NCBI GenBank assembly: GCA_944326135.1
Contig: CALVCU010000006.1
Coordinates: 1-48,664, forward strand
Source: an uncultured Ligilactobacillus sp.
GTDB lineage: Bacteria; Bacillota; Bacilli; Lactobacillales; Lactobacillaceae
Reading direction: 5' to 3'
Length of the DNA: 48,664 nt
The notes below the pieces were generated by a model, which was given only the letters and a program-made list of their open reading frames with translations, did not search any database and was not told where the DNA came from. Below are positions 18,166 to 36,788 of the stretch, one piece after another. Position 1 is the stretch's first letter. Each line of letters opens with the position of its first letter. Made by a program: the position numbers and the translations under genes.

Positions 18166-18198
18166 AAATAAGGATCGCATTTATGCGATCCTTATTTT
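18166..18198. terminator. Bidirectional terminator, glmS / small membrane protein
   Basis: AAATAAGGATCGCAT pairs with ATGCGATCCTTATTT around a TT centre, with A and T tracts on both flanks. Confidence 0.88.
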
Positions 18199-18446
18199 TA
18201 TCGATTTTTAAAATTTAAAATATAATTTATAACTCTAAAAATTAAATATATACTTCCACAAATTACAAACAAGCGTAATAAAAAATATAAAATAGGCACA
18301 TACCAAATTGCAGTATGAAATAAATCAAAAATTGGAGTAAAAGTTTTATGTAAACCAGTACTTGGGATTAAACTTAAAAGAAGTTGGAATGCCATTATTA
18401 TAGTCCCGATTGTAATGCTTGTTTTTAATTGGATGTGATTAACCAT
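18198..18446 (-). CDS. Small two-helix membrane protein, unknown function
   Basis: An 82-residue protein with two hydrophobic helices (about 8-27 and 45-75), lying between an intergenic small-RNA candidate and glmS. A strong GAGGAGG lies seven bases before the ATG, and TATAAT occurs on the minus strand at 18468-18473, which supports a real gene. I recognise no family. Its end lies at the shared terminator. Confidence 0.65.
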   Translation of the reverse strand: MVNHIQLKTSITIGTIIMAFQLLLSLIPSTGLHKTFTPIFDLFHTAIWYVPILYFLLRLFVICGSIYLIFRVINYILNFKNR

Positions 18447-18521: not shown

Positions 18522-18550
18522 TTGACAGCGTTTACATTTGAATATATAGT
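18522..18550 (+). promoter_or_regulatory. Strong promoter overlapped by a cre (CcpA) box
   Basis: Perfect TTGACA (18522-18527), a 17-base spacer and TATAGT (18545-18550). TGACAGCGTTTACA (18523-18536) matches the cre consensus in reverse orientation with one mismatch and covers the -35, a position where CcpA would repress. Confidence 0.7.
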
Positions 18551-18556
18551 AAAGAT

Positions 18557-18647
18557 GTAAGGTATTTAATATTTACCTTCTAATCAATTCTCTTTCTCTC
18601 TTATGCCGAGGTTATGACTTATTAGTCATAACCTCTGTTTTATTATT
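18557..18647 (+). ncRNA. Candidate CcpA-regulated small RNA (about 90 nt)
   Basis: A complete promoter (18522-18550) and a strong terminator (stem 18608-18635) bracket about 50 bases with no open reading frame longer than a few codons and no ribosome site. The predicted RNA has a short 5' hairpin (AAGGTA/TACCTT), then an unpaired pyrimidine-rich stretch around 18582-18602 (TTCTCTTTCTCTCTT) that could pair with purine-rich Shine-Dalgarno sequences, then the terminator hairpin. The next gene has its own promoter beginning in the terminator tail, so this is not simply a leader. The layout is like the CcpA-repressed, CU-rich RsaI RNA of staphylococci, but no homology is claimed. The start is inferred. 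Confidence 0.55.
18608..18647 (+). terminator. Terminator of the small-RNA candidate
   Basis: A perfect 12-pair stem GAGGTTATGACT/AGTCATAACCTC with TATT loop, then TGTTTTATTATTTT. Confidence 0.85.
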
Positions 18648-18676
18648 TTGACATCTAACTTAAAGCTCGTTAAAAT
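18648..18676 (+). promoter_or_regulatory. Promoter of the 102-residue protein gene
   Basis: Perfect TTGACA (18648-18653), a 17-base spacer and TAAAAT (18671-18676), starting right at the end of the preceding terminator. Confidence 0.7.
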
Positions 18677-18708: not shown

Positions 18709-19017
18709 ATGAAAAGTCATGAAGTGCTAACACTTATTGAAGAAATTACTAGAAATGATGGTTCGCGTTATTTTGAAATATCTAATATAGTTCAAAATGG
18801 TCGTGCAGAATTAGCTGCTAATCGCGGATTTATTAAACAAGTACGAATTATACAACTAAATATTCCAAGATCTAAAAATGTAATAAAATATGAAAAATAT
18901 ATAAATCAAAATTTTGAAATGCCAAGTGAAGATTTTGATCATTTTGAAGAGTGGAAACGAACTGATGAAATGGAAAAAGTTGTAGAAAATATTTTACATG
19001 AAAATCATGTTGCTTAA
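18709..19017 (+). CDS. Small soluble protein of unknown function
   Basis: A 102-residue protein without membrane segments or signal peptide. It is mixed alpha/beta in character, with an acidic C-terminal half rich in Glu and Asp (MPSEDFDHFEEWKRTDEMEK). GTGAGGG precedes the ATG and a near-consensus promoter lies just upstream, so it is likely expressed. I recognise no domain. It sits between the small-RNA candidate and the aldolase gene, and no obvious terminator separates it from fba. Confidence 0.7.
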   Translation: MKSHEVLTLIEEITRNDGSRYFEISNIVQNGRAELAANRGFIKQVRIIQLNIPRSKNVIKYEKYINQNFEMPSEDFDHFEEWKRTDEMEKVVENILHENHVA

Positions 19018-29070: not shown

Positions 29071-29109
29071 ATGAAAGCCCTTGCAAAAAATAAAGAAATC
29101 GTTTACAAT
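29071..29109 (+). promoter_or_regulatory. Promoter of glcU-like gene bracketed by two cre-like boxes
   Basis: TTGCAA (29081-29086), a 17-base spacer and TACAAT (29104-29109). ATGAAAGCCCTTGCA (29071-29085) and AGAAATCGTTTACA (29094-29107) each match the cre consensus with one mismatch and cover the -35 and -10. Confidence 0.6.
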
Positions 29110-29149
29110 ACATAATTGTTATGAATAAAGAGAAGAAAGAGGTATGAAT

Positions 29150-30019
29150 ATGTTTATTGCACTTATTCCTGCATTAGCATGGGGAAGTATTGGATTAATT
29201 AGTGGAAAATTAGGTGGAACAGCAAATCAACAAACTTTAGGAATGACGTGGGGAGCATTGCTTTTCGCGATTGTAATGACTTTATCAAATTGGAATCATT
29301 TTATTTCTATTAGTTCCTGGAAGTTATGGTTAGTTGGATTAATTTCAGGATTATTTTGGAGTTTAGGGCAAAATCAACAATTTCATGCGATGAAATCAGT
29401 AGGAATTTCTAAAACCGTTCCAATTTCTACTGGGGCACAGTTAGTTACAAATGCTTTAGCAGGTGTAATATTGTTTCATGAGTGGAAAACAACAAGACAG
29501 TTATCAATTGGATCAGTAGCAATTATTATATTAGTAATTGGTGCAACGTTAACAGCGTTGAGAGATAAAAAGAATAAAGAAGTAAACAGTGAACGTATTC
29601 ACGAAGATTGGCGAGCAGGCTCAAGAGCTTTAATTTTATCTACATTAGGATATTTAGGATATACAGTAGTTGTTACAGCAACTGGAGTAGATACGAAAGC
29701 AATGGTTCTGCCACAAGCTTTAGGAATGGTAATTGGTGCTTCAATGTTTGCTTTAGGTAAAAAAGCATTTGAAAAAGAAACTTATAAAAATATAATCACT
29801 GGGTTAGTATGGGGAACCGGTAATTTCTTTATGTTCGAAGCAACTACGTTAGTAGGGTTAGCAGTTAGTTTTTCATTTTCACAAATGGGAATAGTTATTT
29901 CAACTTTTGGTTCAATTCTATTTTTAGGTGAAAAGAAAACTAAAAAAGAATGGGTATATGTAATTTTAGGTTCTTTAATGGTTATTGTTGGTGGATTTTT
30001 ACTTGGATTATTAAAATAA
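29150..30019 (+). CDS. GlcU-type glucose uptake protein (GRP transporter)
   Basis: A proton-coupled sugar permease of the glucose/ribose porter family, about 289 residues with ten membrane helices. IALIPALAWGSIGLISGKLGG at the N terminus, SGLFWSLGQNQQFHAMKSVG, SKTVPISTGAQLVTNALAGV and GLVWGTGNFFMFEAT are family hallmarks. I take ATG 29150, seven bases after AAGAGG; ATG 29144 is too close. It lies directly before pgi, though with its own terminator. The promoter is covered by cre-like boxes, so non-PTS glucose uptake is probably repressed when rapidly used sugars are present. Confidence 0.9.
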   Translation: MFIALIPALAWGSIGLISGKLGGTANQQTLGMTWGALLFAIVMTLSNWNHFISISSWKLWLVGLISGLFWSLGQNQQFHAMKSVGISKTVPISTGAQLVTNALAGVILFHEWKTTRQLSIGSVAIIILVIGATLTALRDKKNKEVNSERIHEDWRAGSRALILSTLGYLGYTVVVTATGVDTKAMVLPQALGMVIGASMFALGKKAFEKETYKNIITGLVWGTGNFFMFEATTLVGLAVSFSFSQMGIVISTFGSILFLGEKKTKKEWVYVILGSLMVIVGGFLLGLLK

Positions 30020-35783: not shown

Positions 35784-36788
35784 ATGGAAAAACAATCAAT
35801 TACAATTTATGATGTTGCTAAAAAAGCAGGCGTATCAATGGCAACTGTTTCACGTGTAGTAAATGGTAATCCAAATGTTAAGCCTGACACACGTAAGAAA
35901 GTTATGGAAGTTATTGATGAGTTGGATTATCGTCCAAATGCAGTTGCTCGTGGATTAGCAAGTAAGAAAACCACAACAGTGGGTGTTATTATTCCAGATG
36001 TAACAAATGTATATTTTGCATCTCTTGCACGTGGAATTGATGATGTTGCTACAATGTATAAATATAATATTATTTTAGCTAATTCTGATGGTGATAAAAA
36101 TAAAGAAATTCAAGTATTTAATACCTTATTAGCAAAACAAGTTGATGGGATAATTTATATGGGTACGCATTTAACAGATGTGCTTCGAGATCAAATTAAA
36201 CGCTCTAAAACGCCGGTAGTTTTAGCCGGATCAGTGGATCATAAAGATGAAATTGTAAGTGTTCATGTAAATTACATTAAAGCGGTTAAAGAAGCAATAA
36301 ATACGCTTATAGCACATGGAAATAAAAAAATTGCATTTATTTCAGGACCTTTAGAGTATCCAATTAATAGTGAATATCGACTAAAAGGATATAAGGAAGC
36401 TTTAAAAGAAAATGGAATTGATTATAATTCTGATTTAATTTTTGAGACAAATGAAACATATCGTGTAGGAGAAACTTTGTGGCCTGCTTTGTCATCAGTA
36501 AATGCAGATGCTGCTTTTATTGCAGATGATGAATTAGCAGCTGGCGTGTTAAATGGCGCAAAAGATGCAGGAATTAAAGTACCAGAAGATTTTGAAATAA
36601 TAACTGGAAATGATTCTAAATTGACTGAGATTGTGCGTCCACAATTATCATCAATTACACAACCTTTATATGATATTGGGGCCGTTGCAATGCGTTGCTT
36701 AACTAAAATGATGAATAAAGAAGATAGCGAATTGCAACCTACTGTTGAATTACAATATGGTTTTATTAAGAGAGGTTCAACTCGATAA
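35784..36788 (+). CDS. ccpA: Catabolite control protein A
   Basis: LacI-family master regulator of carbon catabolite repression; with Ser46-phosphorylated HPr it binds cre sites. 334 residues. The N-terminal helix-turn-helix and hinge read ITIYDVAKKAGVSMATVSRV, NGNPNVKPDTRKKV and YRPNAVARGLASKKTTTVG. The periplasmic-binding-protein-like core follows (IIPDVTNVYFASLARGIDD, DGIIYMGTHLTD, and ITGNDSKLTEIVRPQLSSI). AAGGAGAAT precedes the ATG. Sites it could bind in this window lie at 18523, 21374, 29071, 29094 and 35700. Confidence 0.96.
   Translation: MEKQSITIYDVAKKAGVSMATVSRVVNGNPNVKPDTRKKVMEVIDELDYRPNAVARGLASKKTTTVGVIIPDVTNVYFASLARGIDDVATMYKYNIILANSDGDKNKEIQVFNTLLAKQVDGIIYMGTHLTDVLRDQIKRSKTPVVLAGSVDHKDEIVSVHVNYIKAVKEAINTLIAHGNKKIAFISGPLEYPINSEYRLKGYKEALKENGIDYNSDLIFETNETYRVGETLWPALSSVNADAAFIADDELAAGVLNGAKDAGIKVPEDFEIITGNDSKLTEIVRPQLSSITQPLYDIGAVAMRCLTKMMNKEDSELQPTVELQYGFIKRGSTR

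Follow-up and report, generated by a model that had tools for sequence, protein, structure and literature searches.

RsaI is a staphylococcal small RNA (sRNA) with a pyrimidine-rich linker. In Staphylococcus aureus, RsaI (RsaOG, RF01775) is described as repressed by CcpA and as blocking the translation of GlcU (PMC9266662, PMC8334554) by pairing at the Shine-Dalgarno (SD) sequence of glcU (PMC9266662); its length is given as 144 nt, its conservation as within Staphylococcaceae (PMC8334554), and its binding to RsaE is attributed to two GGGG motifs (PMC9217828). RosA of Bacillus subtilis is described as a stand-alone RNA, transcriptionally repressed by CcpA, that sponges RoxS and FsrA via G-rich regions (PMC8216469). 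ArgX of Lactococcus lactis is reported to be CcpA-repressed and to have its own promoter and a predicted cre; it is located behind argR, is arginine-responsive and regulates arc, and its conservation is described among L. lactis strains (PMC6586332). The sRNAs of lactobacilli have been little studied; the authors of PMC8220740 knew of one earlier sRNA report for the genus, and they describe 307 putative sRNAs, obtained by sequencing, in Lactobacillus casei BL23, most of them group-specific.

In a 48,664-nt stretch of DNA from an uncultured Ligilactobacillus sp. (hereafter the window), positions 18557–18644 of the forward strand probably encode a trans-acting base-pairing sRNA of ~87 nt that would be repressed by CcpA in glucose, with a glcU-type mRNA as its best-supported conserved target. 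Like RsaI, the sRNA would be stand-alone, and here a cre lies at the promoter and pairing is predicted at the SD sequence of a GlcU-type gene; unlike RsaI, with its 144 nt and two GGGG motifs, the predicted sRNA is ~87 nt long and lacks such motifs. It resembles RosA in being apparently stand-alone, CcpA repression being described for RosA and predicted here from the cre, and differs from it in lacking G-rich tracts. With ArgX, compared by description only, it shares its occurrence in a lactic acid bacterium, its own promoter and a cre; the BL23 sRNAs likewise come from a lactobacillus. The covariance model of RF01775 gave no match at the locus with E up to 10 and matched 0 of 41 genomes, the control genomes being equally silent, and GGGG tracts were absent from the window RNA (18557–18643) and present near the core described below in 4 of 126 loci. 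The initial annotation had cited RsaI as a CU-rich sRNA, whereas the accounts in PMC8216469 and PMC9217828 speak of G-rich tracts. We consider the sRNA to work like RsaI but, as both the model match and the GGGG test failed, do not file it as an RsaI member; the two may be convergent, or the sRNA may be a cousin diverged beyond recognition.

The sRNA promoter (18522–18550, forward strand; TTGACA at 18522–18527, a 17-base spacer and TATAGT at 18545–18550) agrees with the consensus at 11 of 12 positions. A hexamer scan of the window returned 19 promoter-like sites versus 19.4 in shuffles; this is chance level, so the promoter alone proves nothing and the weight falls on the cre and on conservation. 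The predicted CcpA site lies over the −35 hexamer (18523–18536, forward strand; TGACAGCGTTTACA) and has 0 mismatches to TGWNANCGNTNWCA, which, like WTGNAANCGNWNNCW, we take to be a cre consensus. This perfect match to TGWNANCGNTNWCA is the sole one in 48.7 kb (0.14 expected; at least one in 12 of 100 shuffles). The 5′ end of the predicted RNA (18557–18644, forward strand) was placed by the spacing from the −10 hexamer and by where conservation begins. The RNA at 18557–18643 is predicted to fold into a 5′ hairpin (18559–18579, with 18559–18564 paired to 18574–18579), an open CU tract and a terminator, at −24.0 kcal/mol (z = −7.1), a stability reached by 0 of 200 shuffles. The open tract holds an invariant 17-nt core, CAATTCTCTTTCTCTCT (18585–18601), which is unpaired in the predicted fold, is the candidate pairing region, and has no other match in the window with up to 3 mismatches. 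The Rho-independent terminator (18608–18644) combines 12 pairs (stem 18608–18635), a 4-base loop and a T-rich tail. The near-consensus promoter, the cre overlapping it, the 12-pair terminator and the RNA of about 90 nt with a 5′ hairpin and an exposed CU tract had all been put forward in the initial annotation and were recovered here, as was the absence of an open frame: in the window no start-codon frame crosses the core, and the ATG that follows it opens a frame of only 4 codons.

We examined the distribution of this RNA at several taxonomic depths. A DNA-level search of 100 related genomes gave matches in 36, every one among the 61 that share the family, and in 0 of the 39 from elsewhere. 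A covariance model of 87 positions, with the 5′ hairpin as its sole structure, was built from 28 sequences (alignment A1; 28 of the first 30 loci, L011 and L026 being left out). The covariance search of Lactobacillaceae genomes foreseen as a check matched 194 of 397, in 16 of 40 genera; the model matched 16 of 295 genomes in an order sample, every one a member of the Lactobacillaceae, and 1 of 398 in a class sample, the window's own, so that no match fell outside the Lactobacillaceae in these two samples. Diverged copies were found in seven genomes of one genus, which we infer to be Weissella. Scanning named genomes with the core pattern gave at least 120 matches; among those listed, 112 were Lactobacillaceae records and 8 belonged to unrelated phyla, and we take the latter to be chance. 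Species with the core among the matches listed include Lactiplantibacillus plantarum, Levilactobacillus brevis, Limosilactobacillus reuteri, Ligilactobacillus salivarius, Pediococcus acidilactici and Weissella confusa. The genera listed are Ligi-, Levi-, Lenti-, Limosi-, Lactiplanti-, Loigo-, Liquori-, Secundi-, Pauci- and Furfurilactobacillus, Pediococcus, Weissella and Periweissella, with Latilactobacillus added from a separate search; no Lacticaseibacillus record was among the pattern matches listed. A scan of viral contigs yielded no match. No Rfam 15 family matches the locus at its gathering score, and with E up to 10 there were 14 matches, all below gathering and none of them RF01775. 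The sRNA was not named in the titles and abstract openings listed by searches of open PubMed Central papers, nor did the core occur there as DNA or RNA letters. By sequence comparison, the locus is a new RNA family of the Lactobacillaceae. Within the window's genus, 23 of 25 genomes carry the sRNA; the two others (G002 and G015) are both without a close GlcU.

Next, we asked which parts of the locus stay constant. The core CAAUUCUCUUUCUCUCU was exact in 81 of 81 loci found by similarity (L001–L081), from 65 genomes by hand count, a set that leans to the best-scoring matches, with 30 loci taken per search; two weak model matches without the core (L082 and L083) were taken as false, and in the loci found by pattern (L084 on) the core is constant by selection. 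The eight pattern loci from other phyla (L088, L125, L154, L158, L171, L173, L185 and L194) were left out of the linkage, terminator, frame and GGGG counts; four of them (L171, L173, L185 and L194) were still among the 128 loci scored for cre and promoter, a set without L069, L126 and L174, whose flanks were masked or short. Of the 124 in-family loci, 117 have a cre with up to 1 mismatch located 25–95 bases upstream of the core (~1 expected from shuffles), none of the four off-family loci being among the 117; where up to 2 mismatches are allowed (120 loci), the cre starts 1 base into TTGACA in 94. A promoter-like site with at least 10 of 12 consensus positions was found upstream of the core in 114 of the 128 loci scored (4 off-family). 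A terminator was called by script in 121 of 127 in-family loci, its stem sequence differing from genus to genus; of the six others, four (L026, L073, L177 and L191) show a bulged one by eye. In a model-fitted alignment, 99.1% of the cells of the 5′ hairpin are paired and 4 of its 6 pairs have changes on both sides, a number that 0 of 500 shuffles equalled and for which slid controls gave 0–2; the search behind it returned 83 matches from 82 loci, one of them (L106, minus strand) probably false.

An open core that is fixed while the flanking structures vary is the pattern expected of a base-pairing RNA. A peptide-coding role found no support: of 125 in-family loci, 93, including the window, have no start-codon frame across the core, the remaining 32 disagree in frame and start, and the frames opened by the ATG right after the core (104 of 126 loci) range from 4 to 132 codons. 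With its own promoter, a terminator, conserved structure and no conserved frame, the locus displays what is generally sought in a trans-acting base-pairing sRNA. Together, these data carry the proposal of a stand-alone, CcpA-controlled sRNA with an anti-SD-like CU tract well beyond the window, to a family with its cre, terminator, hairpin and core; conservation of the promoter-cre-terminator unit in relatives had been set beforehand as a test, and the unit is kept in the relatives that carry the sRNA.

We then considered the GlcU-type transporter as a target. The window contains a GlcU/RhaT-type sugar transporter gene (29150–30019, forward strand) whose class rests on Pfam PF06800, the NCBIfam RhaT/GlcU model scoring below its cut-off, so that the substrate is putative. 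The predicted target site of the core (29127–29148, forward strand; −18.0 kcal/mol) covers the SD region ahead of the start codon at 29150; this pairing is modest, with ~15% of shuffled cores doing as well (p = 0.146). The window's second cre match, scored against the consensus WTGNAANCGNWNNCW (29094–29108, reverse strand), lies over the −10 hexamer of a putative glcU promoter (29081–29109, 9 of 12), two cre matches in the window being not significant by themselves (at least two in 18 of 100 shuffles). glcU was the third target hypothesis, picked from the RsaI literature and from the presence of the gene in the window. The carrier set comprised 23 sequences at least 54% identical, from which G263 was excluded because its match lacked the gene start, with the window representing its species; 19 of 20 sequences (L428 lacking a usable start) were kept for genomes without the sRNA, 10 of the 19 in-family and 6 at least 51% identical. 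Scored against 300 shuffled cores, the 22 carrier start regions gave a mean z of −1.67 (Fisher p = 7 × 10⁻¹⁰), whereas the 19 start regions from sRNA-less genomes (mean z = +0.24) and 12 distant glcU paralogues in carriers (mean z = −0.30) showed no pairing gain. The difference between carriers and non-carriers (p = 7 × 10⁻⁷) held against the 6 close orthologues from non-carriers (mean z = −0.17; p = 6 × 10⁻⁴). Because species are not independent, we also compared genera, and the genus means were negative in 11 of 11, one of them almost zero (sign test, p = 0.001). At least 4 paired bases fell in the SD zone in 20 of the 22 predicted carrier pairings. Nine control clusters of neighbour genes, with up to 40 sequences scored in each and at least two (glmS and glmM) including starts inside edge-cut genes, gave mean z values of −0.50 to +0.56, the lowest belonging to a glucosamine-6-phosphate deaminase-like gene (Fisher p = 0.05). 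An earlier pairing run had scored 18 of 21 sequences. The suggestion that a sugar-uptake mRNA would be targeted in the manner of RsaI thus gains support, since the glcU starts of carriers pair above shuffled cores and those of two control sets do not.

The presence of the sRNA is also associated with that of the transporter. A GlcU at least 54% identical was present in 23 of 34 carriers versus 2 of 25 in-family non-carriers (p = 3 × 10⁻⁶; hand count, with the 54% line set after inspection of the list), and any GlcU relative at E 1 × 10⁻⁴⁰ in 30 of 34 versus 13 of 25; the two Limosilactobacillus genomes searched had distant GlcU relatives only. A cre with up to 1 mismatch was found upstream of glcU in 14 of 21 carrier sequences (~1 expected) and in 9 of 20 non-carrier sequences; its occurrence in non-carriers means that the glcU cre is independent of the sRNA. 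The 11 of 34 carriers without a GlcU at least 54% identical imply that glcU cannot be the sole target and that other targets must exist.

An unbiased screen drew 802, 840 and 795 start regions from stretches of three genomes, one each of the window's species, Levilactobacillus and Limosilactobacillus. Compared with 40 shuffled cores, genome-wide pairing enrichment was ordinary in 8 of 9 measures, with one at 0.025 in G257; among 399 orthologue groups, glcU took 19th place (p = 0.03), below araD. Target prediction with the CU tract, as initially suggested, supports glcU in carriers but yields no general excess of start regions over shuffled tracts. Glycolytic mRNAs, also named as possible targets, received no clear support, the phosphoglycerate mutase group (4th of 399, p = 0.0098) being equalled by shuffled cores. 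pta was set aside as well, its match being the best in the window's species alone and not conserved. A seed-plus-ATG pattern, which gave 90 matches versus 40 for its reverse in 39 genomes (hand count) and no match in the window's own genome, was likewise discarded, many of the matches resembling ordinary SD sites. In one genome only, a PTS enzyme I-like start (G107:C1 near 537146) contains GAATTGATTA, a sequence that complements the open region on its 5′ side (−23.5 kcal/mol).

The sRNA could be real and CcpA-controlled and yet have other mRNAs, such as araD, as its main targets, with the glcU signal secondary; we regard this as unlikely, though it deserves consideration. araD was the top orthologue group of the screen (p = 2 × 10⁻⁵), 0 of 60 shuffled cores gave a group as extreme, and its start came first of 840 in G257 and first of 795 in G107; the raw pairing energies of araD favour carriers (29 versus 13 sequences, p = 0.011; genus means, p = 0.007), close GlcU proteins are missing from a third of the carriers as counted above, and so constant a core suggests many partners. 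Against this, araD pairing scored relative to shuffled cores was not better in carriers than in non-carriers (p = 0.16), and pta, the top candidate in the window's species, is not conserved. The individual araD starts (L354, L355 and G107:C1 near 564038; Levilactobacillus and Limosilactobacillus) reach −30.3 and −25.9 kcal/mol with the core. It is considerably less probable that the CU core binds a protein, or sponges another RNA, instead of pairing with mRNAs. The core would seem more constant than a few targets would need, and RosA and RsaI are described as acting partly as sponges (PMC8216469, PMC9217828); however, the glcU pairing signal is specific to the core's letter order, and the G-tracts that RsaI and RosA use are absent, as the scarcity of GGGG near the core indicates.

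The position of the locus raises another reading, in which it is the terminated 5′ leader (attenuator) of the next gene rather than a stand-alone sRNA. That gene (18709–19017, forward strand) encodes 102 aa, with no Pfam or NCBIfam family over cut-off and no solved relative, and of 127 in-family loci, 98 have it no more than 200 nt downstream of the sRNA; in the others it is farther off (12), on the opposite strand (2) or not found in the stretch examined (15). The separate promoter claimed for it is present in the window (18648–18676, forward strand; TTGACA, 17 bases, TAAAAT; 11 of 12) but does not generalize, as a promoter with at least 10 of 12 positions lies between terminator and next gene in just 18 of 94 relatives' loci (1.9 expected). 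While the close linkage and the scarcity of intervening promoters favour a leader, the window's own 11-of-12 promoter, the 14 loci in which the gene is far away or on the other strand, and its not being found beside the Weissella copies speak against one. Moreover, the core is open in the window's predicted fold and in 27 of 30 relatives' folds judged by eye, so that no competing antiterminator is seen. We consider a leader in place of an sRNA improbable, although part of the transcripts may serve as one. That the promoter and terminator stand together by chance, with no gene at all, is extremely unlikely: the promoter scan by itself is at chance level, but family-wide conservation, hairpin covariation and cre placement speak against such an origin. 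Upstream, on the other strand, lies a hydrophobic 82-aa frame (18198–18446), relatives of which occur in 17 other loci, for the most part from the window's genus.

For the CcpA-repressed, mRNA-pairing sRNA that we favour, promoter, terminator, structure and conservation are read from sequence and comparison, and CcpA control and glcU pairing are predicted. In the presence of glucose, CcpA would occupy the cre that overlaps the −35 box and block RNA polymerase; upon glucose exhaustion the sRNA would be made and accumulate. Its 5′ hairpin and terminator would keep the 17-nt CU core open for pairing with purine-rich mRNA start regions, hindering ribosome binding, and by covering the SD sequences of glcU and other mRNAs the core would lower their translation, repression rather than activation being assumed by analogy with known sRNAs. 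CcpA and the sRNA could thereby exert feed-forward control over sugar uptake, the window glcU having a cre match of its own. On paper the two arms are opposite: CcpA would repress glcU directly yet relieve it via the sRNA. Such an incoherent loop could restrain glcU under sugar scarcity, its direction and dynamics being our inference.

More tentatively, and at somewhat less than even confidence, we suggest that Lactobacillaceae carry an unrelated counterpart of RsaI, a CcpA-repressed sRNA that came to act on GlcU independently in this second Gram-positive family, and that sRNA and transporter tend to be retained, or lost, as a pair. If true, a carbon-responsive sRNA would be common to many food and probiotic bacteria, catabolite control in lactobacilli would gain a post-transcriptional layer, and two unrelated sRNAs wired to one target would offer a testable case. 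The 17-nt core offers a direct entry point for deletions, mutations and pull-downs with safe laboratory strains, and, as no Rfam 15 family matches at gathering score, the alignments made here could seed a new family.

Two further observations concern genomic context. Two of the records that carry the sRNA are labelled plasmids (220 kb, L234, Latilactobacillus curvatus NZ_CP016468.1 197763–203849; 592 kb, CP117684.1 192106–192192); the annotated neighbours of L234 look chromosomal, so NZ_CP016468.1 may be a piece of chromosome. In the window, ccpA itself lies 17 kb from the sRNA, at 35784–36788, and scores above the cut-off of NCBIfam TIGR01481; the same stretch also holds pgi-like, glcU-type, pta and fba genes.
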